Assembly (NCBI GenBank): GCA_007132345.1
Contig: SLOV01000138.1
Coordinates: forward strand, 1-43,427
Origin: Kiritimatiellia bacterium
Lineage (GTDB): Bacteria > Verrucomicrobiota > Kiritimatiellia > SLOV01
DNA length: 43,427 nucleotides
Direction of reading: 5' to 3'
Shown here: one piece after another, positions 23,033 through 42,840 of the stretch
How positions within the stretch are numbered: the stretch's first letter is position 1
How the letters are laid out: each line of letters opens with the position of its first letter
Program-made: the position numbers and the translations under genes
Notes under the pieces: generated by a model
Database searches by the model: none
What the model was told of the DNA's origin: nothing
The model's input: only the letters and a program-made list of their open reading frames with translations

Positions 23033-23905
23033 TCAGGTGATATTCGGGCGATGATCCAGCGTTTCGAGGATTTCTTCCATTAACAAATGCTGGGAGATCG
23101 ACTCCTCAAGAGAGGGCAAGCAGCAGCTTCCTGTATCCAGGATCTCGCCCACGATACCGCCAATGAGTTCCGACATGTAAGGGAACTTGCTCAAGACCGT
23201 GTCGCCCTGTTTGATACTGGCGTAGTCAAACAGGTAAACCGTTCCATCTACTCGGATCTCCTGGACACCCACGACGCTGTCATCGCCCCGATCGATAAGC
23301 CTGAAACGTTTAGTGCCATCTTTGTCTTCAAAGACCAGTTCCCCATAGATCTCCTCATAGCCGGCTCTCTTGCTGGGAAAAACCTTAAGAACCTTCGTGT
23401 CGCGTCCCACTTGGAGGTGGCTGATCTGCATCTGTCTCTTAAAGACATCAATCCAATGGACTGCATTGCACGCCAGCCCCCAATCTGACCCGATCAATTC
23501 CACCGATTGGGCCTCTTGCTGGAACATGCAATCGAACGTTCCGCTGCCATACAGCCATTGGTTCACAAATGTGGGAACCCGCTTCAGGGAAAGACATGCT
23601 TCAAACTCCGCCCTGGACCTGAACAGATACTTCTCCAGAATGACATAGCTGGGTTCGAGTTCCAGGCAACGTTTGTAGAGCGCAAGACGGGGCTCGCAGG
23701 AGGTCGCGACGACGCAGAGGTCCATCGGCTCGCGAATGTCGTCCAGGGAGGAACAGCGCGTGACCTCACCGAGGTCCTGCCGTTCCAACTCCTGGAGGCG
23801 AGCCGGAGCGTCAACAAGAAAGAGGTGCGCATCGGGAAACGTCCTGGCGATGCCCTGCGCGTACCTCAGGCCGATATTGCCCACTCCAACGATACAGATC
23901 TTCAT
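23033..23905 (-). CDS. Gfo/Idh/MocA-type oxidoreductase (divergent, small)
   Basis: A 290-residue NAD(P)-dependent oxidoreductase-like protein. The Rossmann motif is intact (CIVGVGNIGLRYAQGI), and LDDIREPMDLCVVATSCEPR is the usual second half of the nucleotide fold. The family's catalytic EKP is altered to EKY (VILEKYLF), and the protein is shorter than the usual 330-380 residues. Activity on a standard sugar substrate is therefore uncertain. Its ATG overlaps the stop of the preceding Gfo/Idh gene by four bases, so the two are translated together and may form a heteromeric pair. It is the last gene of the long nonulosonate operon. Confidence 0.85.
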   Translation of the reverse strand: MKICIVGVGNIGLRYAQGIARTFPDAHLFLVDAPARLQELERQDLGEVTRCSSLDDIREPMDLCVVATSCEPRLALYKRCLELEPSYVILEKYLFRSRAEFEACLSLKRVPTFVNQWLYGSGTFDCMFQQEAQSVELIGSDWGLACNAVHWIDVFKRQMQISHLQVGRDTKVLKVFPSKRAGYEEIYGELVFEDKDGTKRFRLIDRGDDSVVGVQEIRVDGTVYLFDYASIKQGDTVLSKFPYMSELIGGIVGEILDTGSCCLPSLEESISQHLLMEEILETLDHRPNIT

Positions 23906-24762
23906 GTCATGTTTTCCTGCATCCAGACATGGATGCGGCGATGCTCCGATAGCGATGGCAGCCTCCCCGGGCCGCCCTGGATGAGGTCATCGATCAGCTC
24001 GCCCAATCCGGGTTTGTATGGGGTGTGTTCATATTCCAGGGGACGGATGATGGGCCGATACGACCTGACAGGAATCTCGTCATCCGCTTCCCGCACTTCC
24101 ATGCCTTCGGCAATGGAGAACATCTCGAGCGGCTTGGCTTCATGGACGCGCCCGTCATCAGCGTAGAAGCGTATGGAAAAATTCTCGTGAGATCCATAGT
24201 TCATGTTGATGACGAGGGGCACCCCGCTGTCGTTCGACAAGAAGAAGCTGGGCGAAGAACTCCCAATTCGTGTCGCCGGCCCAAAGGGTCCAGCAAGGTA
24301 CCACAGCAGGTCAATGACGTGAATGCTCTGGGTAATCAGGGCATCGACGCTTCTTTCCGGAATGGTCGCAATGATTTTAACGATCTTTTCCGTCTCCATG
24401 ACCCCCTTCATGAAAGGAACCCAGTAATAGTAGCGCCGGTTCATGAGCAGGTAGATATCCCTGGCTGTGTCATACGTCGGACTGTGGGCGTAAGGCTTCT
24501 CGCAATAGATGTTACCCTCCAGCCTGCTGCACACGTCCTCATGGGACTCGATATTCGTGCAGACGAGCCAATCGGTGACATCGCTGGAAATCTCCGCCAG
24601 CGTCTCAACCTCCAGCTCTGGAAACATTGCCCGAAAAGACGCCACATTTGCTGAGGTCAGGTCTCTGCTGAAAATTCGCGGCCGGTTCCCCTTTGAGAGC
24701 AATACCTTGCAGTATTCTTTCGCCATGTATGCGCAGCCCACAATTCCCCATCTATTTTTCAC
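23902..24762 (-). CDS. Gfo/Idh/MocA-type oxidoreductase
   Basis: A 286-residue member with a GTG start (GGA about 12 nt upstream). The dinucleotide loop is degenerate: WGIVGCAYMAKEYCKVL has G-C-A-Y-M-A where G-x-G-x-x-G/A is usual. The EKP motif is present (NIYCEKPYAHS), followed by the C-terminal beta-sheet domain (SIHVIDLLWYLAGPFGPATR, then LVINMNYGSHENFSIRFYAD). The substrate is expected to be a sugar or sugar-nucleotide intermediate. It comes 12 bp after the CBS-aminotransferase gene and overlaps the next Gfo/Idh gene by four bases. Oxidoreductase-aminotransferase pairs often convert a hydroxyl to an amino group through a keto sugar; that role here is inference. Confidence 0.87.
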   Translation of the reverse strand: MKNRWGIVGCAYMAKEYCKVLLSKGNRPRIFSRDLTSANVASFRAMFPELEVETLAEISSDVTDWLVCTNIESHEDVCSRLEGNIYCEKPYAHSPTYDTARDIYLLMNRRYYYWVPFMKGVMETEKIVKIIATIPERSVDALITQSIHVIDLLWYLAGPFGPATRIGSSSPSFFLSNDSGVPLVINMNYGSHENFSIRFYADDGRVHEAKPLEMFSIAEGMEVREADDEIPVRSYRPIIRPLEYEHTPYKPGLGELIDDLIQGGPGRLPSLSEHRRIHVWMQENMT

Positions 24763-24774
24763 TATACTTTCTTC

Positions 24775-26253
24775 CTATGCAGTGGTTGGAGCAATCTCCG
24801 CGAGCTCCTCGATGAATATTTCGACGATGTGAGAGATTTCTTCGTCGGTCAAACTGAACGAAGAGGGAAGACAGATTGCGTTTGCCGAGAGATAGGTGGA
24901 AACCGGATACGTGCCATGCGCAAATTCGCGGTACGGGTCCATCAGGTGCAAGGGATAAAAGCCGGGGCGCGAATCAACACCACGATGCCCCAAGTGCGCG
25001 AGGAGAAGGTCGCGCCCACTCTCTCCATATCCATCGAGGATGATCGTGTATAGCCAATAGGAGTTTTCTGACCAGCTATTCTTCGGCAGCAGGGAAATGC
25101 CCTGGCAACCCGAGAGGAGCTGGTCGTAGGTCTGAAAGATGACCTTCCTGCGGTGAAGCAACTCTTCGATACGTTCCATCTGGGCAACGCCGACGGCTGC
25201 CTGCATGTTCGTCATCCTGAAGTTGAAGCCCGCAACGTCGTGCCAATATTTCTTTGTCTTGCTCATCCCATGATCCCGCAGGATCCGGGCGCGGTCCGTC
25301 ATTTCATCATCTTTGAAGACCACCATCCCGCCTTCACCGGTGGTGACACCCTTGTTGGCAAAGAAACTGAAGCAGGTGGCGTCACCGTCCAGTCCGACAC
25401 GCCGGTTCTTGTAGCAGGCCCCCAGTGCTTCGGCGCAGTCCTCGATAACAAAAATGCCTGCCTGCGCAGCGATTTCCATGATCTCGTCGATTCGTGCGGG
25501 CTGCCCGTAGATGTGTACCGGCATCACGGCCTTCGTCCGCGGCGTGATGAGTCTTCGTAACTCCTCCAGATCGATGGTCCAGGTATCCCGCTCGACGTCG
25601 GCCAGCACGGGGGTGGCCCCTGCGTGTATGATGGCATTGATGCTGGCGGCAAACGTGAAGTTGGGCACGATGACTTCATCGCCACGACCAATGCCTAACG
25701 TATTCAGCGCCAGGTGCAGGGCCACCGTCCCATTGGACACGGCAATGGCGTGCCCCCCGCCCAGGTAATCATTGAAGGCCTTCTCGAAGAGCCCGATGAA
25801 CCTTCCTTGAGAAGAGATCCAGCCGCTCGTGACGCATTCAAGGACGTTGCTGATCTCCTGCTCGCCAATATTGGGTTCAAGCACCATGAAGTGCTTGATC
25901 CGTTCGCGCGTCGAGTAATCCACAACGCGCTGGTTGGCATCCAGCAGAGGGATACAACGCAGGGTCTGCTCGAAGAGATCCCAGATCTCCGAAATCTCAC
26001 AATCATACGGCAACGAATGAGGGGCGTGATTGTAATAGGGCGAGTCCACCGTCATCGTGTCGTCCAGCTCGACGCCCGTCAGAAGTGCACGCCGCGCATC
26101 GCCGTCGGTAAAGACACCGATCAGTCTGCGGTCTGCGTCCACAAGAAATACGATGCCCAGTGTGTTGGCTTGAATCACTTCCAGCACATCCCGAAAGGTT
26201 GCAGGGAGCGTGACCAGGAGGCTTTCCAGGGGGATATGTGTTCGGGTAGGCAT
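24775..26253 (-). CDS. CBS-pair fused to DegT/DnrJ/EryC1-type sugar aminotransferase
   Basis: A 492-residue fusion. Residues 1-122 are two CBS repeats (GIVFLVDADRRLIGVFTDGD, ARRALLTGV; then CEISEIWDLFEQ, RCIPLLDANQRVVDY), a form typical of the CBS modules attached to sugar nucleotidyltransferases such as PtmE. Residues from about 125 form a complete PLP aminotransferase of the DegT family: GGHAIAVSNGTVALHLAL, PNFTFAASINAI, FVIEDCAEALGA, and the Schiff-base Lys301 in SFFANKGVTTGEGGM. Such enzymes aminate a keto sugar on a nucleotide or free sugar. CBS pairs bind adenine nucleotides or related ligands, so the enzyme may be allosterically controlled; this is inference. It follows the TIM-barrel gene by 10 bp. 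Confidence 0.92.
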   Translation of the reverse strand: MPTRTHIPLESLLVTLPATFRDVLEVIQANTLGIVFLVDADRRLIGVFTDGDARRALLTGVELDDTMTVDSPYYNHAPHSLPYDCEISEIWDLFEQTLRCIPLLDANQRVVDYSTRERIKHFMVLEPNIGEQEISNVLECVTSGWISSQGRFIGLFEKAFNDYLGGGHAIAVSNGTVALHLALNTLGIGRGDEVIVPNFTFAASINAIIHAGATPVLADVERDTWTIDLEELRRLITPRTKAVMPVHIYGQPARIDEIMEIAAQAGIFVIEDCAEALGACYKNRRVGLDGDATCFSFFANKGVTTGEGGMVVFKDDEMTDRARILRDHGMSKTKKYWHDVAGFNFRMTNMQAAVGVAQMERIEELLHRRKVIFQTYDQLLSGCQGISLLPKNSWSENSYWLYTIILDGYGESGRDLLLAHLGHRGVDSRPGFYPLHLMDPYREFAHGTYPVSTYLSANAICLPSSFSLTDEEISHIVEIFIEELAEIAPTTA

Positions 26254-26263
26254 TGTACTCGAC

Positions 26264-27127
26264 TCATTGATGGCAAGGTTGGGGCTGCCGTTTTGACTCG
26301 CTAAGTTCTTGTTGCTGTTTCAGTTGATGCATCCCGCAGCCGTAGACCTCAATCGAGACATAATCGACGTCTGATTTCAGGTGCGGCCAGAACCACGCGT
26401 CTTCGTCGAACGGTTGGTTCGAATCCTCTCGTCCATCATTGTCGCTGAGATGATAGCCGGTGATTCGTTCGTGGCATTCGTCGAACATCCCAACGGGGTC
26501 GAAGTGTAAGGAGTTTGCCGATACCTTCAGGTGCGCCACATCGATCAATTGACCAACCCGCTGTGGGAGCAGCCCCAGGATCTGCTGACACTCCAGCGGA
26601 TCGCACATCAACAATGGGTTGTCCGGGAACTCAAGAGCATTGCGTGCGGAAAGCACGTTATTCTCAATCATGAGAGTGATTCCGAGCGATTCGGCAGTCT
26701 CGTTCAGACGACATACGCGGCTGACGAATACCTCAATACATCGATCGCGATCGAAAAGGCTCCGATTCGGGATACGATTGCCCAACTCATCGAGCTTCGG
26801 ATCAAGCAGGAAGCCGGCGTGAAAACTATATCGATCCGCGCCAAGCGCGACGCACCAGCGGAGCGCCTGCTCGACATGCGATATGCTCCTTTCGCCGATG
26901 ACGGTATCTAACGATGCCAGGTTAAAGACAAAGGGGTCCGGCGGTGGGGGGAAGTAATTATGAATCTGAAAATGAGCAGCCGGCGTCAACGCCTGTAGAT
27001 CGCGCAGCAGTGTTTCCGAATAGGCACCTCCCGAGAGTTCAATGAACGGCATGCCGGCACTGAGCAGTTCTGTGGAGACGGCATCCCCGGCTCGATCATG
27101 AAAACCGCCTGTGGAAACATAAGTCAT
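26264..27127 (-). CDS. Xylose isomerase-like TIM-barrel protein
   Basis: A 287-residue protein of the sugar phosphate isomerase/epimerase (AP endonuclease family 2-like) fold. Visible segments are MPFIELSGGAYSETLLRDLQ, AAHFQIHNYFPPP, RYSFHAGFLLDPK (metal-side His), TLMIENNVLSA (metal-binding Glu), GQLIDVAHLKVSANSLHFDP, RITGYHLSDNDG and a terminal VSIEVYGCGM. The H, E, D, H, E order of the metal site is kept, suggesting an active isomerase or epimerase. It sits between neuB and the CBS-aminotransferase. Similar proteins occur in other nonulosonate-like clusters. Its substrate is unknown; it might supply or reshape the six-carbon precursor that a NeuC-type enzyme would otherwise provide. Confidence 0.85.
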   Translation of the reverse strand: MTYVSTGGFHDRAGDAVSTELLSAGMPFIELSGGAYSETLLRDLQALTPAAHFQIHNYFPPPPDPFVFNLASLDTVIGERSISHVEQALRWCVALGADRYSFHAGFLLDPKLDELGNRIPNRSLFDRDRCIEVFVSRVCRLNETAESLGITLMIENNVLSARNALEFPDNPLLMCDPLECQQILGLLPQRVGQLIDVAHLKVSANSLHFDPVGMFDECHERITGYHLSDNDGREDSNQPFDEDAWFWPHLKSDVDYVSIEVYGCGMHQLKQQQELSESKRQPQPCHQ

Positions 27128-27212
27128 AGGAGTCTTGGTGTGTAAGCACTCTCATGCGCGAAGAGCGGCAGCGCGTGGCTCTACCCTGCGGCCCCGGCGA
27201 TGATGGTGTGGG

Positions 27213-28220
27213 CTACAGATCAATGAGTTCATCTTGTGCAAAATCGCGAGGAGCCTTCCGGCCCACGACTTCATCCCACCGCATGGGTGAGATTCCGGTG
27301 CCGGGCCGCTTCGCGGTCATGTTCTCTGTGCTGAAGGTCTCGCCCGCCGCGATCACCTGGCGCGCAACCAGCGATTTCCGCATGACGGGTCGGTTCCGGG
27401 CCTCGCTGGGAGCCAAACGTTTGATGCCATCGCCCAGTGCCGTTTCGATGTTGCGGATGGCGGTGACCAACGCGGCAAGCTCTTCGGGTTCGAGGCTGGC
27501 TTTGTGGTCGGGCCCCGGCAGGGTGCGGTCCAGCGTAAAGTGTTTTTCGATAATCGAAGCCCCCATCGCGACAGCGGCAATCGACACCTCAATTCCGGGC
27601 GTATGGTCGGAATAGCCGACAGCGAGGCCGAAGGCACGATGCATGCTCTGCATGGCGCGCAGGTTGACCTCCTCCATCGGCGTCGGGTATTGCGTCGTGC
27701 AGTGCATCACCGAGATGTCGTTGCGTGGCGTTCCCGCCTGTTCGAGCGCATCGATTGCCGATTCAACCTCCCCCAACGTCGCCATGCCGGTAGAGAGGAA
27801 GACCGGTTTTCCGGTCCGGCCAATCCGGCGCAGATACGGCAGGTTGGTGAGCTCGCCGGATGGGATCTTGAAGCAGTCCTGGCCCAGCCGGTCGAGCAGA
27901 TCGACGCTCTCGATATCGAAAGCGGTAGAGAAAAAGCCTATGTTTCGCGCCGCACAATGCGCCATGAGCTCCTTGTGTGCATCCTCGCTCAGTTCCAGGC
28001 GGCGCAGCATTTCGTGCTGAGATTCCTGTTTGTCTGTGGTCTGGGCCTGGTAATCCGCCTTTTCGGCCGTACGGGTCACGATCCGGTCCGCGCTGAACGT
28101 TTGGAATTTGACGAGGTCGGCGCCGACCCTGGCCGCCGCGTCGATCAACTGCCTGGCCAGCGCGATGTCGCCGTTATGGTTGACGCCGGCTTCGGCGATG
28201 ACAAGAGTTCGATGTTTCAT
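27213..28220 (-). CDS. neuB: N-acetylneuraminate/nonulosonate synthase
   Basis: NeuB-type enzymes condense phosphoenolpyruvate with an N-acylated hexose to make a nine-carbon keto acid (sialic, legionaminic or pseudaminic acid). The 335 residues contain the TIM barrel with IAEAGVNHNGDIALARQLID, DLVKFQTFSADRIVT, FKIPSGELTNLPYLRRI, VFLSTGMATLGEVESA, MHCTTQYPTPMEEVNLRAM, VGYSDHTPGIEVSIAAVAMG and IIEKHFTLDRTLPGPDHKAS. A C-terminal antifreeze-like SAF domain follows (about 275-335, RKSLVARQVIAAGETFS). It overlaps neuD by four bases. The motifs do not by themselves separate sialic from legionaminic acid synthases; nearby PtmA- and CBS-type genes lean towards a legionaminic-like sugar. Confidence 0.94.
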   Translation of the reverse strand: MKHRTLVIAEAGVNHNGDIALARQLIDAAARVGADLVKFQTFSADRIVTRTAEKADYQAQTTDKQESQHEMLRRLELSEDAHKELMAHCAARNIGFFSTAFDIESVDLLDRLGQDCFKIPSGELTNLPYLRRIGRTGKPVFLSTGMATLGEVESAIDALEQAGTPRNDISVMHCTTQYPTPMEEVNLRAMQSMHRAFGLAVGYSDHTPGIEVSIAAVAMGASIIEKHFTLDRTLPGPDHKASLEPEELAALVTAIRNIETALGDGIKRLAPSEARNRPVMRKSLVARQVIAAGETFSTENMTAKRPGTGISPMRWDEVVGRKAPRDFAQDELIDL

Positions 28221-28831
28221 TTTCTACCGTGTCCAATAAATCGTGCATGATCGGCCTGGTTATGCCGCACACTCAGGCCCATGCCGACCAGACAGCATTT
28301 TCCGAGCCGAAGTCCATCCTTGACCACACTTCCGCTGCCGACAAAGCTGCCCGCGCCAATGGTTACACTGCCATTGAGGATGGCGCCGGTGGAGATATGA
28401 CAGTGGTCTTCGACCGTCGCGTCATGTTCAATCAGGGCGCGGGAATTGACGATGCAATTGCTGCCGACCCTGGCGCCAGCATTTACAATTGCGCCATGCA
28501 TCACGATCGTGCCCGCGCCAATCGTCGCGTGTCTGGAGACGTGGGCCGTTGGCGCGATGATGTGGGGCAAAAGAAAACCGGCCTGGGCGGCTTGCCGGTA
28601 AAGGTGGATGCGCTTATCTGCCGGGCCGACCATGCCCACGGTGATGAGGGCGCATCGATACTCTTTGGCCAGTTCCGGCAGGGCATCGTCCGTGGCAATG
28701 ACGGTGTATCCGAGGTGTTGGCTACGCATTTCCTCTGGCATTCCAACCAGCCCCGCGATCTGGTATTTGCCTTCTTGTTCGATGACCTCCATGCAGGCAC
28801 GGGCGTGGCCGCCGGCACCGATCAGGATCAT
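28217..28831 (-). CDS. neuD: NeuD/PglD-type sugar O/N-acyltransferase
   Basis: A 204-residue left-handed beta-helix acyltransferase of the NeuD/PglD family. It has the N-terminal PglD domain (MILIGAGGHARACMEVIEQE) and hexapeptide repeats (HATIGAGTIVMHGAIVNAGA, then GSNCIVNSRALIEHDATVED, HCHISTGAILNGSVTIGAGS). The catalytic base is the His in IEHDATVEDHCHI. Such proteins acetylate an amino sugar precursor or the nonulosonate itself using acetyl-CoA. I chose the ATG at 28831 (MILIGAGG); an upstream in-frame ATG at 28882 adds a charged leader not seen in the family. The gene ends in an ATGA overlap with neuB, which supports joint action. Confidence 0.9.
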   Translation of the reverse strand: MILIGAGGHARACMEVIEQEGKYQIAGLVGMPEEMRSQHLGYTVIATDDALPELAKEYRCALITVGMVGPADKRIHLYRQAAQAGFLLPHIIAPTAHVSRHATIGAGTIVMHGAIVNAGARVGSNCIVNSRALIEHDATVEDHCHISTGAILNGSVTIGAGSFVGSGSVVKDGLRLGKCCLVGMGLSVRHNQADHARFIGHGRK

Positions 28832-28906
28832 GCTAGATTCGCTCCGTGATCTCATACGTTCGCCATCCGCGAGTATAGCCATGGTCCTAGACCCTGTAAA
28901 CCCATC

Positions 28907-30361
28907 CTAAAGAAGCTTTCGGCGCAGCCACCCGGTCATATCTGTCAGGTGGTTCAGCCTGCGCCAGCTATACAGACTGACGACCAGCGTGACCAGTGCC
29001 CCCATCACATAGCCCGCAGGCTCGGACCAGGCTCCCGAAACGATCGTACCCCCCCCGGCAAGCAGGAGGCACAGGGCGACATACCGGTTCCGCCGGGTTG
29101 GCTTGAATCCAATCATTCTTTTCGTAACGATCGCAACCGCGGCGTAGAGAAAGAGATAGGCAATCCCGAAACTCACTCCGGCCATGACCAGGCCAACCTC
29201 CGGGACCCCCAGCACAAACGACCCCAGGTACACGGCACTCCATGTGAGCTGGATTCCAATGTACGCGCCCCCACGGCCTGCGGCCAGAAACGTGAACACA
29301 ATGGGGGTGGTGGCGACCTTGAGAATGTCGCCCAGCATTTGCCATCTCAGCATCTCCGCCGCGGGCTCAAAGCCTTCGGCATAGAGTAGGTGAATGACCC
29401 ATGGCGCCAGGGTGATCATGGCCATCAGCAAAGGCCCGGCCATCAGCAGGGCCATCTCGGACTGCTCGTTGATCAGCCTGCTTGCCTGCTCCCGATCGTG
29501 AATGGCCGCGGACAGCCGCGGGTAGTAGTCCATGACCATGGCATTCAGAACAAACACGAGATAGGTCATCGAGATCGCCCAGGCCGCCTGGAAATGGCCG
29601 CTGGCGTCCAGCCCCAGATCGCGCAGGACGAGAGAACGCATGGCAAGCTGCGTGATCGACATCAGCAAGCCGGAAGCCATAAAGGGGATGCCCAGTTTCA
29701 GCATGGCCAGCCACTGGCTTCGAATTCCTGCGAGTTCTGAGGGGCCACGGGGACGCGGCAGACGAGCGGCATAGGTGCTCACCACCAGGAAATTGACGGC
29801 CGGCGCGGCCAACACGAACCAGAGGACGCCATCGTTCTCCAGCAGGTAGATCGCAGTAATCCCCACCATCGCACCCACCAGTGCACTCAGGATACTGACT
29901 CTTGCCAGGTCCTCAATTCGCCGCAAGCCCTGCAGCAGAGCGGTCTGCGATCCGGCGAGCAGGGTCAGCAGGAGCCCGAGCCCCAGCCAGCCCACGTCGC
30001 TCGCGTGTGCGGTGTCGCCAAATACCCACTGGGCGACCGGCGCGCGCAGGAGCCAGAGGATCGCCGTGCCTGCGATGCCCAGCACCACACTGCCAAACCA
30101 CAGGGCACGACGAACCGTCGCCAGGACCTCTGCTTCGTCCGCGGAGGCCGCGACCTGCTTGACGCCGCTGGTGGGCATGCCGCAGCCGGCCAGGGTGGAC
30201 GCCACGACCACGACATTCTGGTAGAGCCCCATGAGGCCAACACCCGCAGGCCCCAGCAGCATCGCCAACACTTTGACTTTGACGATGCTGATGCAGATGT
30301 TCATCGCGGAAGCGCCGCCGATAATGGCGCTGGAGCGGAAGATCTGACGGTAGGAAGTCAT
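28907..30361 (-). CDS. wzx: Wzx-type polysaccharide flippase (MOP superfamily)
   Basis: A polytopic protein of about 484 residues with 12-14 predicted helices, resembling O-antigen translocases of the WzxE type. The start is SYRQIFRSSAIIGGASAMNI, followed by KVKVLAMLLGPAGVGLMGLY (the common 'K..A.llGp.GvGl.gly' motif), then ARLPRPRGPSELAGIRSQWL and LVLRDLGLDASGHFQAAWAI (the 'lg.e.aG.yqa.w.i' motif). It would move undecaprenyl-linked repeat units across the inner membrane. An alternative start at 30397 adds 12 residues. It lies inside the operon between a methyltransferase and neuD. A second, ABC-type exporter is encoded at 40.8-42.8 kb, so the locus may serve two polymers or one exporter may be auxiliary. 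Confidence 0.88.
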   Translation of the reverse strand: MTSYRQIFRSSAIIGGASAMNICISIVKVKVLAMLLGPAGVGLMGLYQNVVVVASTLAGCGMPTSGVKQVAASADEAEVLATVRRALWFGSVVLGIAGTAILWLLRAPVAQWVFGDTAHASDVGWLGLGLLLTLLAGSQTALLQGLRRIEDLARVSILSALVGAMVGITAIYLLENDGVLWFVLAAPAVNFLVVSTYAARLPRPRGPSELAGIRSQWLAMLKLGIPFMASGLLMSITQLAMRSLVLRDLGLDASGHFQAAWAISMTYLVFVLNAMVMDYYPRLSAAIHDREQASRLINEQSEMALLMAGPLLMAMITLAPWVIHLLYAEGFEPAAEMLRWQMLGDILKVATTPIVFTFLAAGRGGAYIGIQLTWSAVYLGSFVLGVPEVGLVMAGVSFGIAYLFLYAAVAIVTKRMIGFKPTRRNRYVALCLLLAGGGTIVSGAWSEPAGYVMGALVTLVVSLYSWRRLNHLTDMTGWLRRKLL

Positions 30362-30481
30362 CAATGAAGATCCGGCAGGGCGCCGCAGTCCGGCCACGGA
30401 TGTCGTTCAAAGCCGGGTTTCGATCCAGCGGGATGATGCGCACGCTTCTGCACCGGGGCTCCGGGATCTGATGCCGCGCCT

Positions 30482-31363
30482 CTATTTCTCCGCAATCGCG
30501 ATCAAGGTATCCGTCCTGTCGATCCCTGCCAGCATATTCGAATAGGCGCTATTCAACGGATCCGTAGCCAACAGGCTCCACTTCAAGTGCCCACCCGGCT
30601 TCTTCTCCTTCAGCCAATGAAGATGGTTCGCCAGATTATACCGCTGAAAACCGGTGATGACGGGATTCCTGAAGTTTGCCTTTTCCAGGAAGGCCGTTAA
30701 GGACCATCGGTTATGCAACACCAGATGCTCGCTCCAGAACGTGAAGCTCTTGAATTCTTCACACTCCAGAAACGAAAAGAGAAAGTCATTGGCGTGCGGC
30801 ACTTCGATGACAATTCTTCCGCCGGCCGTCAGCTTGTCGTACGCGACCTTCAGGAAGCCAAATGGATCGGTCAGATGCTCAAACACATGGAAAAGCGTGA
30901 TGACATCGAAGTCTGTATGGGGAACGTCCGCCACATCGCTGTAGGCCTCGTAGCCTTCCTTTTCCAAGGCGTCTTTCGCCCGCTGCTGCGGTTCCACGGC
31001 AACAACGGTTTCGGCAAAAGGCCCGAGCAGATCCAGAACACCACCCGCTCCAGACCCTACATCCATCCATTTTCTATTGCTGATGAGCGGCAGGAACTGA
31101 TCTTTTCGTCGGCTATCGTCTGCATACGCATCGACCAAGACCCTCTGTCGGTTGTTCTCTTTCCGGAGACTTGGAAACTCATGTTTTTCAACATAGTGCG
31201 ACCTGTCCATGTGCTCGGAGGTTGATGTAAAGATGACGCCGGATTTCCGGCACCGCAGAATGGAGATCCCTTCCCGATCCCGTATCGTGGGATAAAACTC
31301 TTCGATGGCATTCTCGTCGCAAATGCCCCAGTCACACAACAGTTCCGCGATCTTGTTTTTCAT
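30482..31363 (-). CDS. SAM-dependent methyltransferase (Methyltransf_23 type)
   Basis: A 293-residue protein. The N-terminal 90 residues (WGICDENAIEEFYPTIRDRE, ILRCRKSGVIFT) look like the C/H-poor leader of methyltransferases that act on sugars in surface polysaccharide loci. The Rossmann core has WMDVGSGAGGVLDLLG (motif I), TVVAVEPQQRAKDALEKEGY (motif II) and FDVITLFHVFEHLTDPFGFL, typical of the Methyltransf_23 family. The ATG is preceded by a strong GGGGAGG about eight bases upstream, better than its neighbours. It follows the ptmA-like gene by 38 bp. C-, N- or O-methylation of a sugar is likely; C. jejuni legionaminic loci also carry methyltransferase-like genes near ptmA, but the target here is unknown. 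Confidence 0.85.
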   Translation of the reverse strand: MKNKIAELLCDWGICDENAIEEFYPTIRDREGISILRCRKSGVIFTSTSEHMDRSHYVEKHEFPSLRKENNRQRVLVDAYADDSRRKDQFLPLISNRKWMDVGSGAGGVLDLLGPFAETVVAVEPQQRAKDALEKEGYEAYSDVADVPHTDFDVITLFHVFEHLTDPFGFLKVAYDKLTAGGRIVIEVPHANDFLFSFLECEEFKSFTFWSEHLVLHNRWSLTAFLEKANFRNPVITGFQRYNLANHLHWLKEKKPGGHLKWSLLATDPLNSAYSNMLAGIDRTDTLIAIAEK

Positions 31364-31401
31364 ACAACGTCCTCCCCTTGTTTTAGATATGTAAAGCGGC
31401 C

Positions 31402-32190
31402 CTAAATGCTCCAGCCCCCGTCGACTACCAGATTCTGGCCCGTCATATATTTCGATGCGTCACTCAGCAAAAAGACGAGGGCGCCAGCCAGGTCATCTGC
31501 GCCTGCCATTCTGTTGCCGAGAACGACTCGTTTGCAATATTGCGTCACAAAGGACTCTTCCTGGCGATTATAGACGCCGCCCGGTGAGATGGCGTTGACC
31601 CGTATGCCATGCTGGCCCAGGTAGGAGGCCAAGTATTTCGTCAGGCTCAATAGAGCGCCCTTGATCGCAGAGTATTCCACCGGACTGGTAAAATCCGCGC
31701 CTTCATACACTTCAAATCGCGGCGCCATGAAGCCGTAGATGGAGGAAACGAAGACAATCGTGCCGTGCCCCTGTTTGACCATGACCCGGGACAGCTCCTG
31801 AGACATCAGGAAATATCCGCCCAGGTGGAGATTCACGTTCTCGCAAAAATCCTCGTACGTGACGTCCTCGAACTTGCGACCGTAGTGTTGATTTCGCGGG
31901 TAGGCGTTGTTGACCAGAGCGTCTACCCCGCCGTGTTTCGCGAGAACGGAATCCATCATCCGCTGGATCGACTCTCTGGATGTAACATCCACCCGGCAGA
32001 ACTCGATCTTGTCTGTCCGCAACTCGGCCGACAACGATTCCTTCACCCGTTGTCCCGAAGCCTCGTCGATATCGGCAAGGATGGCTCTTCCGCCGTTCTC
32101 CACCACGGCCCGGACGAAGCCTTGTCCGATCAGGCCCGCCCCGCCGGTAATCACAACGCGACGATCGTGTAGATCAGATTGAAATGTCAT
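31402..32190 (-). CDS. ptmA: PtmA-like short-chain dehydrogenase
   Basis: A 262-residue SDR with an intact cofactor motif (VVITGGAGLIGQGFVRAVVE), then DALVNNAYPRNQHYGRKFED, VTYEDFCENVNLHLGGYFLM, VFVSSIYGFMAPRFEVYEGA and active-site YSAIK, ending in YMTGQNLVVDGGWSI. The NNAYPRN-x-x-YGR and YEDFCENVNLHLGGYF strings match what I recall of Campylobacter PtmA, a flagellin glycan gene linked to legionaminic acid. It overlaps the upstream Gfo/Idh gene by 17 bases. PtmA and its oxidoreductase partner have been proposed to act early in precursor synthesis, but the exact reaction is not settled. A second, more divergent SDR of the same kind is encoded two genes upstream. Confidence 0.88.
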   Translation of the reverse strand: MTFQSDLHDRRVVITGGAGLIGQGFVRAVVENGGRAILADIDEASGQRVKESLSAELRTDKIEFCRVDVTSRESIQRMMDSVLAKHGGVDALVNNAYPRNQHYGRKFEDVTYEDFCENVNLHLGGYFLMSQELSRVMVKQGHGTIVFVSSIYGFMAPRFEVYEGADFTSPVEYSAIKGALLSLTKYLASYLGQHGIRVNAISPGGVYNRQEESFVTQYCKRVVLGNRMAGADDLAGALVFLLSDASKYMTGQNLVVDGGWSI

Positions 32191-33112
32191 CGATGTCGAC
32201 TTCTCTCTCTTCGGTTAGAGAACGTTGGGCTGCGATGAGAACCTTCATGGAATTCAGCACGAGGTCCGGGTCAATCGGAGGCTCCCTTGATCGAATCATC
32301 CCAACGAAGTCCCCAAGCAGTCTTCTGAACATGGAGAAATTGTCGTTCAATTCCGCGTGAAAGCGTTTTGTATCGCTCCAGAAATCCAGTGCCAGTGTCT
32401 TAGCCGAATTACCAAGGGCGTCGATGAAGAGCAACGAGTCGTCGTTGTTGCGGATGCGCACCGAGGTGTGTTTCCCCTGGACGCAAGAGACGCTCCTGGC
32501 ATGGAATCCCGTCACGCCGAGGACGCCGTCGAGCATGTGGATGCCATATTTCTCCATGCCGTTGATGACCGTTCCTCGGATCAGCTTGATATCGCCAAAG
32601 GCATCCAGGTGGCCCCTGATCTCATCCAGTTCCCGAGCATATCTTGCGCCGGCGCACGACATCAACTTGCCCTCTTCCAGGTAGGGCCTGAAGAATTGCA
32701 GTTCCGATACTTCAAGGCTCAGGGGCTTATCGATGAAGACGAACTTGCCTTGTTCGAGGAAGTCCTTTGCCAATGGATAATGCGTCTCGTAATCGTCTCT
32801 TGCGATGATGACGCCATCGACGGCGTCGATCATGTCGGCCAGATCCACGACGAGGTTCGGAATCTTCGAGGCCTTCACGAGTTTTTCGGTCAGGGCGGCA
32901 TCTTGCGTCCAGGCGTGGGAGACGTGGACAGAGTCGAACCCGAATTCAGAGGCATGCCGGGTCTTGAGGTAGTTGTAGATGACGTCCCATCCGGAAGCCT
33001 TCATGCCTTCAGGGTCAAACCCATTGATGATGGCGGAAAAGGAGAAGGGGTGACCGTTGCCCTCGTTGAACCCAACGATGCCCAGTTGGATGGGGGCTAC
33101 CATGTTGTCCAT
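32174..33112 (-). CDS. Gfo/Idh/MocA-type oxidoreductase between the two SDR genes
   Basis: A 312-residue protein starting [20 protein letters not shown]. The nucleotide loop GFNEGNGH is atypical for the family's GxGxxG. It keeps [20 protein letters not shown], the expected second half of the Rossmann fold, and FVFIDKPLS, in which the usual EKP is DKP. The [18 protein letters not shown] segment has the His of the H-x-x-D active-site pattern. An ATG at 33103 is an alternative start. It overlaps the flanking SDR genes on both sides (16 and 17 bases), so the SDR-Gfo-SDR trio is translated as a unit. Such oxidoreductases sit beside PtmA in legionaminic loci (PtmF-like), which supports joint action on a sugar precursor. 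Confidence 0.85.
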
Positions 33113-33900
33113 CCCCCATCGATGCAGATATTTTGACCGGTGATGTAGCTCGATGCATCGGAACAGAGCAGGGCGATGACGCCCTTCAGGTCTTCCGGCT
33201 GCCCGATCCGGGTCAGCATCGTCTTCGCCTTCAAGGCTTCGATGAAGGGTTCATTCTTGAGGATCTCGCCGAAGGGGAACGGCCCGGGGCTTATGGCGTT
33301 GACCCGGATGCCATGAGGGGCCAGAAAGCTGGCCAGATACTTGGTGAGTTGGATGACACCCGCCTTGGCCGCGCCATAACTGGGTGGGTTCGCGTGTTCG
33401 GTTCCCACATACATTCTGTAGTCGGGCGCTACATGGCCATACATCGAAGCGACATTCACAATGACGCCGCGGGTCTCTTTAAGGAACGGAAAAGCCAGCT
33501 TTGTTGTATAGAACACCCCGTTCAAGCAGACATCGATATCGTAGTTCCAATCGTCCAGGCTGATGGATTCGAAGGTGTTCTTCTTTCCTGACCAGGCATT
33601 ATTGATCAGGATATCTAATGCGCCGTATTCTGTTTGAATGACTTGCAGTGCCTTCTCTATGCTTTTGGGGTCGGTGATGTCCACATGCACGCCACTGGCC
33701 CGGACGCCGTACTTCTGATGCAATGCCTCGGCAACGGCATGGCTCTTCTGCTCGTTTCTCGCCCCGATGACGATGTTGGCTCCAAGCTCGGCAAGCGCCT
33801 CGCACATCGCGGTTCCCAGGTAACCGGCGCCCCCGGTGATCAAGACCGTCTTCTTTTCCAGGCCGAGGAGTTCTTGTAGCGGTTTCATGCCGTGCTTCAT
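33097..33900 (-). CDS. Short-chain dehydrogenase, paralogue of the PtmA-like gene
   Basis: A 267-residue [23 protein letters not shown] (cofactor loop), [40 protein letters not shown], active-site YGAAK, then [20 protein letters not shown] and [16 protein letters not shown]. It shares with the PtmA-like protein the ASMYG/SSIYG, APxxRxY/APRFExY, TKYLAS and GQN(I/L)xxDGGW strings, so the two probably arose by duplication, but it lacks NNAYPRN. A GGAAAGG about five bases before the ATG is a good ribosome site. It follows neuA by 16 bp. One may be an oxidase and the other a reductase in a keto-sugar step; that is inference. Confidence 0.9.
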
Positions 33901-33916
33901 TCGCGCCTTTCCGCGG

Positions 33917-34630
33917 CTAGGCAGTCTTTTCCCGATAGTGCTGCATGATTTGCTCCGCGATTGTGAAATCGAGCTCTGTATCGATATCCAGTGCCGTTTC
34001 CCCGGGCGTGATGACCGCGGCGGTTCGACCGAGCAGGAGCGAAATCGAGTCCTCCTTTTCGAAGAGGATCTCTTTGGTCAGCGCATAGATCTGGCCCGTC
34101 AGTTCGTAGGCGACGGGTTGTTTCTGTCTCGGCAGCCAGGGGATGGCGCCTTCAAGATATGGCTCCACAACATCCTGTGAGACTCTCCAGAGCCTGTTAG
34201 GGGAAACGTGTGATTCCGTGAAAGTGGCGACACTATCGGCTCTTCCTTCCAGCAGAATCTCGAGGCATGCTTCAATGTCCTCCATTCTTCTGAAGGGGGA
34301 AGTCGGCTCCAGAAGGATCACGATGTCGACCGGCTCGCCGGCCTTCTCAACTTGCTGCACGGTGTACTTGATCGCATCGATGACCAACGAGGCGTCTGCC
34401 GCCAATTCAGCAGGTCTCTTGATGACCTCAGCGCCATGTGCATTTGAGATCCCGGCAATGGCGTCATCATCGGTGGAGACGACGGTCTTATGAATGAGCG
34501 GGCATTGCAACGCGGCTTCAATGGAGTGAACCAGCAACGGCTTCCCGGCAAACGTCCGTATATTCTTGCCGGGGATCCCTTTCGAACCGCCTCGAGCGGG
34601 AATGATCGCCAGTATCTGCTTCTTTGCCAT
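33917..34630 (-). CDS. neuA: CMP-nonulosonate (acylneuraminate) cytidylyltransferase
   Basis: NeuA-type enzymes activate nine-carbon keto acids with CTP. From [20 protein letters not shown] the protein has 237 residues with the CTP-binding signature ([20 protein letters not shown]), then [57 protein letters not shown], and the C-terminal [14 protein letters not shown] (the D-I-D-x-x-x-D metal site). Three starts are possible: GTG 34654 overlapping the wzc stop, ATG 34648 and ATG 34630; I prefer 34630 because it gives the family's usual N-terminus. Together with neuB it shows that the operon makes a CMP-linked nonulosonate. CMP-Kdo synthetases (KdsB) are ruled out by motif. Confidence 0.92.
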
Positions 34631-34650
34631 CTTCGCTTTCGGCTGCATTC

Positions 34651-36864
34651 TCACATGGCGGTTGAGCGGTTTGGGAGATGGAGGGCTTGTTGAAGCGGGA
34701 GAAAATGGTCGGCGAAGTTGCCCTGCTGGAACTCTCCGTTGACAATGAGGCCAGCGACGTTGGCGCCCACATTACCGAATTGCTGCAACGCGTGGCGCAT
34801 GGCACGAAGACGAATGCGATTGGGTTGGCAGACGATCACCACACAATCGGCGATCCCGGATAACGTGAATGCATCATCGGACACGCCCAGCGACGCGACG
34901 TCGAGGATAATGCGATCATAGTGGTTCCGTGCCCAGTCAATAAAATCGCGGACCGAGCGGCCCCCGATGATGACCGCCGGGCTATGGGTCTCGGAGGCCT
35001 GGCTGGTGATAATATCCAGGTTCTCGCAGGGGCCGGGTACGGGCAGGTCGGCAAAGCGCCCGGGATCGCCGTCGGCCAGAATGTGCAATAGGCTGTGGTT
35101 GGTTCCCTTCTCCTTGTACTTGGCCACCGCGTCGGCATAGATCTGGGTTTTCTGGCGAGGACGAAGGTCGAAGTCAACGAGCAGGGTCTTCTCTTTGCTC
35201 CGGGCACAGATGATGGCGAAGTTGCTGGAGCAGGTGGTCTTGCCTTCTTCAGGGGCGGCGCTTGCCATCAAGATGACCTTGCTGGTCTGCGCCATTTGCG
35301 GGGAATTCAGCCGGCTGCGGATTGTGGCGAACACATCGAGGATCTGGCCGAGGGCGGAGGCGTTGAGACTGGCGAGGGCCAGGTCCTTGCGCTCGGCATC
35401 GGGCACACGGGGCACCACCCCCAGTACATGGAGCCTGAGGCCGGCCTCAATATCCGCCACCGACATGACGCGGTCATCGAACCGGTCGGTGACGAGCCCG
35501 ACCGCGAACCCGGCCATCATGCTGAGCAGGAGGCCCAGCGCGAAAACCTTGCGGGCGGACGGCCGGATCGGCCGCTCGGGGGTGGTCGCCCTCTCCAGCA
35601 CCCTGACGGAAAAGGTCTTCTCGTCGGCGGCGAGCCGGGCCTCCTCGATGCGGCGGAGGATCCCGGTGTAGGCCCGTTCGCGGGCGTCCCGCTCGCGGGC
35701 CAGGGCGTTGTACTCGGAGTTGCGCTTGACGATCTCCATCTCCAGATCGGCCGCCCGGGTGCGCTGGATCTCCAGTTTCTGGCGGAGGCTTTCGATCTGA
35801 TTGACCTTCAGGTCAATGCTGGCCGCGACCGCCCGCTGGGTGCGCTCGACGGACTGGAGAAACCGTTCGGTTTCCCGCTCGACCGCGGCGGAGTTCAGAA
35901 GAACCTCGGGGTGCTGCTGCGTGTATTTCTCGAGAAGGCCGTCGCGGTGGGCGGTGACTTCATCGAGCCGGAGGAGGGCATCGCTGATGGCCCGTCTGCC
36001 GGGGATATCCTCGGGCAGGCTGGTGAACTGCTGGGGATCCTCTTTGGCTGCCTCCAGCATGGCGGCCACGTCTCGAAGCATCACCATCTGGCTCTCCAGA
36101 TCAACGCTGAGCTGGTTGAGCGAGAGGATGGAAGCCTCTGCCGACTTCCGCTCTGCCTCGAGGCTGTCGATCTGGTTTTCGGCGCGGTACGCCACAAGTC
36201 GGGCGTCGGCCTCGGCCACCAGCTCGCGCTGCACCTCGGCCTGCTCCTGGAGCCAGGCGACCGCGTCATTGGACAGATCCCTGTTTTCGCTGACGGACTG
36301 GAACTCGGCCCCCATGGCATAGGCGTTCGCCACCCGCGCCGCCAGCTCGGGTTCGGGATGCTCTGCTGATAGAACGATGATGTTGGTGTTGCGCATGTGC
36401 CTGACCTCGGCACGGCTTGCAAACAGGTCCTCGAGCAACGCGTCCGTTTCGGTGGCCTCCGGGTACATCTCGCGGTACTGCGCCACGAAATGCTGCCTCA
36501 TGGAGGAGCCTCGCAGTTTCTGGAGCCGGGTATTGAACTCCTCCCACGGCTGGATCAGCCCAATATCCTCATGCACGGACTGGGCCATGATTCGAGGGGT
36601 GCGCAGTCTGATCTCGATCATGCTCGTGGCCTGGTAGATACGGGTGGTGAGCATGAAATAGAAGAGGGTACCAACCGCACCGAGGGCAACGACAAGCAGA
36701 ATGGGCTGCCATTTGCGTTGGAGGATCTTGAGTACACGCCGGGGGGTCAGGCCCCCGCCGCGCATGCCCCCCCGGTACCCGCCGCCCGCTTCGGGGACGG
36801 GGTATCCCTGGTGGTGGCCGCCGAGGGGATCACCGTAGCTGGGCGGTCGGGATGAATCGGGCAT
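34651..36864 (-). CDS. wzc: Wzc/GumC-like polysaccharide co-polymerase with BY-kinase domain
   Basis: A 737-residue inner-membrane protein. A glycine-rich N-terminus (1-45) is followed by a Wzz-type domain with two membrane segments (about 52-72 and 440-462), a long periplasmic coiled coil between them, and the proline-containing PERPIRPSARKVFALG before the second helix. The cytoplasmic kinase has ASAAPEEGKTTCSS (Walker A, about 533-543), LLVDFDLRPRQKTQ (Walker A') and YDRIILDVASLG (Walker B, with ASL in place of the usual TPP). No tyrosine follows Walker B, so the usual C-terminal tyrosine cluster is missing. It probably controls polymer length and export. It is the first gene of the operon and overlaps neuA. 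Confidence 0.9.
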   Translation of the reverse strand: MPDSSRPPSYGDPLGGHHQGYPVPEAGGGYRGGMRGGGLTPRRVLKILQRKWQPILLVVALGAVGTLFYFMLTTRIYQATSMIEIRLRTPRIMAQSVHEDIGLIQPWEEFNTRLQKLRGSSMRQHFVAQYREMYPEATETDALLEDLFASRAEVRHMRNTNIIVLSAEHPEPELAARVANAYAMGAEFQSVSENRDLSNDAVAWLQEQAEVQRELVAEADARLVAYRAENQIDSLEAERKSAEASILSLNQLSVDLESQMVMLRDVAAMLEAAKEDPQQFTSLPEDIPGRRAISDALLRLDEVTAHRDGLLEKYTQQHPEVLLNSAAVERETERFLQSVERTQRAVAASIDLKVNQIESLRQKLEIQRTRAADLEMEIVKRNSEYNALARERDARERAYTGILRRIEEARLAADEKTFSVRVLERATTPERPIRPSARKVFALGLLLSMMAGFAVGLVTDRFDDRVMSVADIEAGLRLHVLGVVPRVPDAERKDLALASLNASALGQILDVFATIRSRLNSPQMAQTSKVILMASAAPEEGKTTCSSNFAIICARSKEKTLLVDFDLRPRQKTQIYADAVAKYKEKGTNHSLLHILADGDPGRFADLPVPGPCENLDIITSQASETHSPAVIIGGRSVRDFIDWARNHYDRIILDVASLGVSDDAFTLSGIADCVVIVCQPNRIRLRAMRHALQQFGNVGANVAGLIVNGEFQQGNFADHFLPLQQALHLPNRSTAM

Positions 36865-40775: not shown

Positions 40776-42026
40776 TTATTGTGGCCGCTCGTCGAGTTGC
40801 CAGTGGTGGGGCGGGTGGAGGACACCCTTGTTGTTGCCGGTCGGTAATACGGTCAAGGGGTAGGTGTGCCAGTGATAATCGTAGGCGTAGTCCCAGTTCT
40901 TCGTGTAGGCCCCCACGTCGACGTAATAGAGGCCGCCTTTTAGATCGAGGCGCTCCATGTGAAGCGTGATCCGCCCCTCCCCGTGGAGCACCGGCATGCT
41001 GATGCCTGCGGCGGCCGTGCTCAGGTCGGCGCAGACCTGCTCGTCTTCTGTGCTGATGGTCACGCCAAAGGTCGGTGCCTCGATTCGCTTTGGTGCCGAA
41101 TACGCGATTTCGACACACAGCGGCTCACCACTGCGAATCTCGTTCACCGGACGATTATGCCGATCGAGGATCTGTACGGCAGCGATTTCCAATTCCATGG
41201 AGCCAAAACGATTCTCGCGCACGCGTAGCTCACGCCCTGATGCCGCGATTCGTGCGGGCCAGTCGATCGGTGTGTGGCGCCGGGTTTCCGTTTCCATTTC
41301 GGCGACATACTGGTCAACAATCTCATCCGGATCGCCCTGCCCGACCAGCCGCCCGCGCCTCAGCCATAATGCCTTGTCACACAGTTTCCGGATCTGCCCC
41401 ATGTCGTGAGAAACCATAAGGATGGCACTGTTCTCGCTCTTGAACTGATCGATCCGCTCGAGACATTTCTTCTGAAACGCGAGATCGCCAACTGCCAGGA
41501 CCTCATCGACCAGCAGCACGTCGGGCGCCGTGTGGACACCGATCGCAAACGCCAGTCGTAATTGCATGCCGGTGCTGAAGGTGCGTAGCGGGCTGTCGAT
41601 AAACTTCTCAAGCTCCGCGAATGCCACAATGGAATCCAGGCGTTGTGCCACCTGGCGCCGGGTGAGCCCCCCGATCACGCCGCTGATGAAGATATTCTCG
41701 CGCGCGGTCAACTCGGGGTGGAAGCCCGTACCGAGCTCGAGCAGTGCGGCGATGCGCCCCCGGATCCTCACCTTTCCTTGGTCGGGCCGGCCCACACCGC
41801 CGATGAGCCGGAGCAAGGTCGATTTTCCGGCGCCATTCCCGCCAACGATGCCGGCGATCTCGCCGGGCTCGACGGCGAAGCTCACGTCATGCAGCCCCCA
41901 GAAGCGTTCCACGGCCCGTAGACGATAGGAGCGGCGCACGAAAACCTCTTTGAGTGTGCGTGGCCGGTCCGTGTGATAGCGGCGGAACTGCTTGCCGAGT
42001 CCTTCCACAACGATTGCGGGTGGCAT
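40776..42026 (-). CDS. wzt: ABC exporter ATPase Wzt with C-terminal glycan-binding domain
   Basis: The nucleotide-binding subunit of an ABC-2 polysaccharide exporter, 416 residues. The ATPase domain (about 4-255) has GIVGGNGAGKSTLLRLIGG (Walker A, 62-70), RTFSTGMQLRLAFAIG (ABC signature, S-T-G-M-Q in place of LSGGQ as is usual in Wzt), and VLLVDEVLAVGDLAFQKKCL (Walker B and D-loop), then ILMVSHDMGQIRKLCDKALW. The C-terminal Wzt-type beta-sandwich (about 275-400, GSMELEIAAVQILDRHNRPV ... GGLYYVDVGAY) binds the polymer's terminal sugar in characterised members. Its ATG directly abuts the wzm stop codon, so the two are one unit. Confidence 0.94.
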   Translation of the reverse strand: MPPAIVVEGLGKQFRRYHTDRPRTLKEVFVRRSYRLRAVERFWGLHDVSFAVEPGEIAGIVGGNGAGKSTLLRLIGGVGRPDQGKVRIRGRIAALLELGTGFHPELTARENIFISGVIGGLTRRQVAQRLDSIVAFAELEKFIDSPLRTFSTGMQLRLAFAIGVHTAPDVLLVDEVLAVGDLAFQKKCLERIDQFKSENSAILMVSHDMGQIRKLCDKALWLRRGRLVGQGDPDEIVDQYVAEMETETRRHTPIDWPARIAASGRELRVRENRFGSMELEIAAVQILDRHNRPVNEIRSGEPLCVEIAYSAPKRIEAPTFGVTISTEDEQVCADLSTAAAGISMPVLHGEGRITLHMERLDLKGGLYYVDVGAYTKNWDYAYDYHWHTYPLTVLPTGNNKGVLHPPHHWQLDERPQ

Positions 42027-42803
42027 CTACAGCTCCTCCACAAAGCGGTAACTCAGGTGTACAAACACGGTGTGGCCGACCACCAGCAGTACCACGGCCA
42101 ACACGCTGAGCTGCAGTAAACTCAGAGCCGTGGGGGAGGTGCCGTCCAGCAGGATGACCCGATAGGCCTGTACCAGATGCATCATCGGGTTGAGACGATA
42201 CATCGGCTGGAAACGCTCCGGCACCAGGCTGATGTCATAGAAGATGGGGGTAAGGAAGAAGAGCAACTGCAGGAGCACCCCCATCAGATGCTCGATGTCA
42301 CGGAAGAGCACATTGCCCGCGGCGACGAGATAGCCAAGGCCCAGTGTGAAGACAAACTGGATCGCGATCACGACGGGCAATAGCAGCGTCACGCGGCCCG
42401 GAACGGTGCCTTCAAAGAAAAGAAAAATCATCAGTAGAGGGAGCGCGAAAAGCAGGTGGACCAGGTTGGTGGTCACGGTGACAACAGGCAAGACCGGTGC
42501 GGTGAAGCCGGGCCACCGGATCAACTCGCGGCTGTCCGTGATGGACCCGGACGCCTGCAACACAGAGGATTGAAACCACGTATAGACCAGCATCCCCGTG
42601 AAGGCGAAGGGGCCAAAGCGCGGAATGTCCAGCGCCAGGGCCACCTTGAAAAGAAAATAGAAGACCGTGAGAAACATGAGCGGGTTCACGAGGGCCCACG
42701 CAAACCCGAGAACGGAGCGTTTGTAACGCACTTTCAGGTCGCGAACGACCAACTCCCGCAAGAGGTCGTGCAGATAGACCAGCCGCTGCAGTTCGATCTT
42801 CAT
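42027..42803 (-). CDS. wzm: ABC exporter permease Wzm (ABC-2 type)
   Basis: The membrane subunit of the polysaccharide exporter: 258 residues with six helices. Family features are LRELVVRDLKVRYKRSVLGF (N-terminal gate helix region), AWALVNPLMFLTVFYFLFK, TGMLVYTWFQSSVLQASGSI and FRDIEHLMGVLLQLLFFLTP (the 'RDi..l...l.q..ff.TPI.Y' motif). I chose ATG 42803 (MKIELQRLVYLHDL), with GGAG about nine bases upstream; the open frame beyond it overlaps the neighbouring gene region and is not family-like. With wzt it forms an exporter for O-antigen or capsule chains. It follows a glycosyltransferase gene by 37 bp. Confidence 0.93.
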   Translation of the reverse strand: MKIELQRLVYLHDLLRELVVRDLKVRYKRSVLGFAWALVNPLMFLTVFYFLFKVALALDIPRFGPFAFTGMLVYTWFQSSVLQASGSITDSRELIRWPGFTAPVLPVVTVTTNLVHLLFALPLLMIFLFFEGTVPGRVTLLLPVVIAIQFVFTLGLGYLVAAGNVLFRDIEHLMGVLLQLLFFLTPIFYDISLVPERFQPMYRLNPMMHLVQAYRVILLDGTSPTALSLLQLSVLAVVLLVVGHTVFVHLSYRFVEEL

Positions 42804-42840
42804 GGGCCGCGGCTCCCGATCCTGGAATGGGCATGTTCCG

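Follow-up and report, generated by a model that had tools for sequence, protein, structure and literature searches.

Background

Little is known about how bacteria regulate the synthesis of sialic-acid-like surface sugars, the nonulosonates (NulO). A precedent for control by the end product exists in another fold, where CMP-Neu5Ac allosterically inhibits GNE, the first enzyme of sialic acid synthesis (PMC13214540). We find CBS pairs of one type on enzymes of several pathways that end in a CMP-activated ulosonate. Those on KdsD/KpsF, where a CBS pair with a TDGDxRR signature lies C-terminal to a SIS isomerase domain, and on the PtmE-type nucleotidyltransferases (NTP-transferases) of legionaminate loci, where the pair is N-terminal, are known already. 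AMP, ATP and SAM are ligands of other CBS pairs.

The DegT aminotransferases of described NulO pathways, LegC and PseC, carry no CBS pair, and their pathways use NDP-sugars together with a NeuC- or PseG-type hydrolase. To our knowledge every known NulO route depends on NeuC or PseG for the release of the sugar from its nucleotide. The Caulobacter GDP-perosamine synthase (3bn1, 3dr4, 3dr7), which is likewise without CBS and is not a NulO enzyme, acts on GDP-4-keto-6-deoxymannose. In Bacillus subtilis the NtdA/NtdC pair (4k2b and others), also CBS-less and part of an antibiotic (kanosamine) pathway, combines a DegT aminotransferase with a Gfo/Idh dehydrogenase and is an earlier case in which a DegT enzyme works on a sugar phosphate that carries no nucleotide. 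Here we describe a gene in which a CBS pair is joined to a DegT aminotransferase, found on a contig of 43,427 nucleotides from a Kiritimatiellia bacterium (SLOV01000138.1, hereafter the window). Loci of other genomes are designated by L numbers.

A CBS pair joined to a complete DegT aminotransferase

The gene is one uninterrupted frame of 492 codons with an ATG start and no internal stop (Table 1). The first-pass annotation had described a CBS module that runs straight into a complete PLP aminotransferase, and the reading frame, Pfam, the structure model and the homologues all bear this out. Pfam covers the whole DegT domain (PF01041, residues 128-479, 414.6 bits, E 5e-124), while in the CBS part the first repeat alone scores (PF00571, residues 18-58, 29.7 bits, cut-off 24). 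The second repeat, at about residues 62-120, is divergent and has lost its last helix; the structure model gives it strands and a helix, and the alignment shows conserved columns there. Both parts are folded in the AlphaFold2 model (mean pLDDT 91.5, pTM 0.87). The catalytic Lys301 marks the DegT domain as that of an aminotransferase and not of a dehydratase. The protein is not a member of the PtmE type, as it has no NTP_transferase match in Pfam and a PLP aminotransferase takes the place of the nucleotidyltransferase; nor does it belong to KdsD/KpsF, since the SIS domain is absent (Pfam) and the genome has a separate KdsD.

The combination of CBS and DegT, which the annotation had singled out for a domain-architecture search, recurs in about 25 fusions from at least four phyla. 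It is nevertheless not common, and the literature search returned no characterisation of it and no paper on a CBS plus DegT fusion or on CBS with CMP-Kdo.

The CBS pair belongs to a type shared by four enzymes

An alignment of 22 fusions has G46, D50, G51, D52, R54 and R55 near-invariant, giving the signature TDGDxRR, and D50, G51, D52, R54 and R55 are conserved far above the remainder of the CBS part. The motif quoted in the first-pass annotation, GIVFLVDADRRLIGVFTDGD, corresponds to residues 33-52. We take the signature to lie at the place that binds nucleotides in CBS pairs. As a DNA pattern it occurs just twice in the window's genome, in the fusion and in KdsD, and the in-frame CBS matches in readable one-per-genome loci of relatives fall on 21 KdsD and 1 CBS-NTP-transferase. 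The best PDB matches of the CBS part (3k2v, 4o9k and 3fna) are all KdsD CBS pairs, a comparison of sequence only, the structural match list spanning residues 119-489. One of them, 4o9k, was presumably deposited with CMP-Kdo. The match to KdsD does not prove that the fusion would bind a CMP-sugar.

In the CBS tree, which is short and has weak deep support, most fusion CBS pairs group with those of NTP-transferases while KdsD forms a separate clade (100/99), and the CBS of one fusion has that of an NTP-transferase as its sister (99/92). The earlier assignment to the same kind of CBS as in PtmE-type enzymes is thus upheld by the grouping, with the reservation that the deep branches are weak. A simple move of the module from PtmE to DegT does not fit, because this CBS type is also found on KdsD and NeuB and the DegT tree needs more than one fusion, or fusions and losses together. 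We therefore count four enzymes with the same CBS type, KdsD, NTP-transferases, NeuB and DegT, all of pathways that end in a CMP-ulosonate; its presence on NeuB is new here.

The NeuB cases, from the class to which the window's genome belongs, are proteins of about 750 amino acids that combine a TDGD-type CBS with NeuB, SAF and a TIM barrel and are encoded beside NeuA (Table 1). Our search found no description of this architecture. A triple fusion of 557 amino acids (L017:940-2610) joins a part that is NeuD/PglD-like by eye to a CBS pair and an NTP-transferase.

The fusion lies mostly in nonulosonate loci

The gene is part of a minus-strand operon (23033-36864) of overlapping or nearly overlapping genes, comprising NeuA, two short-chain dehydrogenases, Gfo/Idh genes, a methyltransferase, a flippase, NeuD, NeuB, a TIM-barrel isomerase and the fusion. 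The fusion lies in a nonulosonate locus, with NeuB, NeuD and NeuA among its genes.

Table 1. Positions of the fusion gene, its parts, the operon genes and related genes in other loci
Feature	Position	Strand	Basis
CBS-DegT fusion gene, 492 aa	24775..26253	-	ORF, Pfam, full-length homologues
CBS pair, residues 1-122	25888..26253	-	PF00571; PDB sequence matches; structure model
TDGDARR signature, first CBS repeat, residues 49-55	26089..26109	-	alignment of 22 fusions
DegT/DnrJ/EryC1/StrS aminotransferase domain, residues 123-492	24778..25887	-	PF01041; 3bn1 structural match
Catalytic PLP lysine Lys301	25351..25353	-	invariant in 22 fusions; aligns with active-site Lys of GDP-perosamine synthase
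Second downstream gene, Gfo/Idh-like, overlaps the 23902..24762 gene	23033..23905	-	PF01408 weak, below cut-off
Downstream gene, Gfo/Idh-like by eye, no Pfam match; same position in L042	23902..24762	-	
TIM-barrel sugar isomerase/epimerase (AP_endonuc_2)	26264..27127	-	Pfam; constant neighbour of fusion
NeuB nonulosonate synthase + SAF domain	27213..28220	-	TIGR03569 507.9 bits, above cut-off
NeuD-type acetyltransferase	28217..28882	-	TIGR03570 above cut-off
Wzx-type flippase	28907..30397	-	Pfam, NCBIfam
Methyltransferase	30482..31363	-	Pfam
PtmA-like short-chain dehydrogenase	31402..32190	-	NF050062 227 bits, below cut-off 350
Gfo/Idh/MocA oxidoreductase, same operon	32174..33112	-	PF01408
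Second short-chain dehydrogenase of operon	33097..33900	-	Pfam
NeuA-type CMP-nonulosonate cytidylyltransferase	33917..34654	-	PF02348
CBS-NeuB-SAF-TIM	L126:3034-5337	-	
CBS-NeuB-SAF-TIM	L127:4372-6624	+	
CBS-NeuB-SAF-TIM	L011 (CBS at 1501-1815) / L125:3630-5900	-	
Class-III aminotransferase instances	L047:11699-13063, L055:11185-12561, L041:3157-4545, L139:11891-13231, L141:5043-6368		

A module of NeuB, TIM-barrel isomerase (fused to GNAT in some cases), CBS-DegT and NeuA is conserved, and this gene order is common to Pelagibacteraceae, Bacteroidota and others. To compare loci with and without the CBS pair we used the same genome scan: NeuA, NeuB and the TIM barrel are present in 15/18, 13/18 and 15/18 fused loci as against 3/35, 1/35 and 1/35 CBS-less DegT loci (Fisher p 8e-8, 1e-7 and 2e-9, uncorrected for kinship, the association being in part due to shared ancestry of the loci). 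One NeuA and the sole NeuB and TIM barrel of the CBS-less set come from L068, which starts with residues that match the last part of the second CBS repeat in L058. Because L068 looks like a fusion cut by the contig end, these figures probably understate the contrast. L139-L141, three fusions that were found later, are all in NulO-type loci with an adjoining TIM barrel. The recurrence of the fusion almost always in clusters for sialic-acid-like sugars suggests that the finished product may regulate its own synthesis.

In L055:7728-9005, L041:7705-9030, L047:7642-8901 and L048:7664-8935 the TIM-barrel isomerase encoded upstream of CBS-DegT carries a fused GNAT acetyltransferase. Many CBS-DegT loci also have a class-III aminotransferase resembling glutamate-1-semialdehyde aminomutase (Table 1) and a short-chain dehydrogenase that is mostly PtmA-like.

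Proposed end-product control of amination and its alternatives

Ligand-controlled amination is, judging from the conserved residues and the gene context, the most likely reading of the fusion. In its specific form, to which we would give an even chance, the protein would be a PLP sugar aminotransferase of a CMP-nonulosonate pathway whose own CBS pair senses the CMP-activated product and controls the activity. The DegT domain, with catalytic residues intact in 22/22 aligned fusions, would move an amino group, probably from glutamate, onto a keto-sugar, and this group would end up on the nonulosonate. The CBS pair would bind a nucleotide, most likely the CMP-activated product made by the operon's own NeuA, or else CMP or CTP, and in the bound state would slow amination once the product suffices. 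We infer the sugar that is aminated, the ligand and the inhibition by its binding. The earlier proposal of ligand-controlled amination would then be right in kind and too narrow, the fusion apparently being one example of a CBS module that is portable within CMP-ulosonate pathways.

It is a real possibility that the aminotransferase is a plain nucleotide-sugar 4-aminotransferase of the LegC or GDP-perosamine synthase type, with the operon making an ordinary legionaminic-type sugar with the help of distant genes. The closest solved structure of the DegT part is indeed the Caulobacter GDP-perosamine synthase (3bn1, Z 50.9, rmsd 1.5 over 362 residues, 43 % identity), which shares the fold and the catalytic lysine; the sequence match to NtdA/NtdC is much weaker at 125 bits. 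LegC is the top NCBIfam model (TIGR04181, 350.6 bits), and such an enzyme would be compatible with regulation by CBS. However, the LegC cut-off of 420 is missed, as is that of PseC (TIGR03588, 272.3 bits, cut-off 423.5), and a pathway of this type needs a member of the NeuC family or PseG to free the sugar, neither of which was detected in the window's own genome.

The search for PF02350, the family of NeuC/LegG-type hydrolysing 2-epimerases, found no member in the window's genome, which is 91.5 % complete. NeuB is present in 17/17 genomes that have the module, and 8/17 (among them the window's own, Litorirhabdus, Pedobacter segetis and Algimonas) have no PF02350 member over the cut-off, for most module genomes other than the window's no completeness figure being given. 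PseG is absent from five of these eight, weak and below the cut-off in two (SAR11) and present in one. The genomes without both are the window's and those of L042, L045, L046 and L059, all with NeuB and NeuA; in L042 NeuA was not seen beside the fusion. Since NeuC and PseG are missing from several module genomes, these data suggest a NulO route that may run on sugars not linked to a nucleotide and in which the TIM barrel would be an isomerase or epimerase. We tentatively consider it possible that the module marks an undescribed pathway that dispenses with NeuC, PseG and a nucleotide-linked hexose, together with a portable CBS that reads CMP-ulosonates on the flux-controlling enzyme. The substrate of the TIM barrel and the aminotransferase would then be a sugar, free or phosphorylated, or else the ulosonate itself, and the flux-controlling enzyme that carries the CBS would be KdsD, the NTP-transferase, NeuB or DegT. 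The module is also a marker of NulO synthesis in lineages, some SAR11 and Sphingobacteriaceae among them, that a search based on NeuC would overlook.

Should CMP-ulosonates be read by one CBS type, then one binding assay could assign a function to CBS on four kinds of enzyme, and a genetically encoded sensor of the CMP-sialic-acid type would be on offer. Alternatively, the CBS pair may sense AMP/ATP or SAM and link amination to the energy state or the supply of methyl donor. These are the common class of CBS ligands and the operon holds a methyltransferase, but we regard adenine sensing as unlikely: it leaves unexplained why, in our sample, this CBS type is confined to enzymes of CMP-ulosonate pathways.

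It is more doubtful still that the CBS pair is a ligand-free module for dimerisation or for docking DegT to NeuB, the TIM barrel or NeuA. These partners are fused to one another elsewhere, as CBS-NeuB-SAF-TIM and GNAT-TIM, and the fusion of Sinorhizobium fredii has lost the CBS signature with DegT still conserved. Against this, DegT enzymes dimerise without CBS, and conservation within the CBS part is highest at the nucleotide site and not on a surface; this near-invariant signature makes a pure scaffold role appear less likely. The S. fredii gene (L036:7875-9362) lies among sugar kinase and NTP-transferase genes with no NulO genes nearby, and its decayed signature outside a NulO locus would also fit end-product control. 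Finally, although the source genome is a draft of 410 contigs, it is exceedingly improbable that two genes were joined through an error of assembly or frame or that the fusion is recent and non-functional, as the frame is intact and both are ruled out by the same architecture in full-length homologues of other genomes, two of which conserve the junction at 72-74 % identity, with about 20 more across other phyla.

Distribution and origin of the fusion

Full-length matches are found in Candidatus Litorirhabdus singularis (L042, 72 %), a Pseudomonadota MAG (L043, 74 %), Azospirillum (L035, 47 %) and about 20 others, with SAR11, several Bacteroidota, Ignavibacteriota and Lentisphaerota among the further hosts. 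The fusion is present in 2/387 genomes sampled from the window's own phylum (the window's genome counted) and in 3/297 from the SAR11 family, and in full length in 2/301 from the family of Pedobacter segetis, while many relatives of the same families have DegT without CBS. This patchy distribution is as expected from horizontal transfer. We found no CBS-DegT fusion in phages. Matches in two pieces came from S. mexicanum and E. adhaerens plasmids; in S. mexicanum the DegT has no CBS and a CBS-NTP-transferase is encoded next to it, so that there is no fusion.

Most fusions fall in one clade of the DegT tree, where 20/22 rows are fused; the other two are the contig-cut L068 and L092, which has a divergent N-terminal extension. 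L056 and the Rhodobacter-type fusions L038/L039 lie outside this clade, both lines also with NeuB. A single origin is rejected by the tree, which needs 5 changes, of which starred branches force at least 4, a count that L068 and L092 make too high. The tree thus asks for a fusion that arose more than once, or for fusions together with losses.

The operon is shared with the gammaproteobacterium Ca. Litorirhabdus singularis: between 23033-33900 of the window and L042:135-12216 the order is conserved and the proteins are 68-81 % identical, which across phyla makes recent horizontal transfer likely. An ABC-2 permease and a Wzt-type ATPase with the Wzt C-terminal domain adjoin the NulO operon in the window (40776-42866, minus strand), so that two kinds of polysaccharide export genes lie side by side, these and the Wzx-type flippase within the operon.
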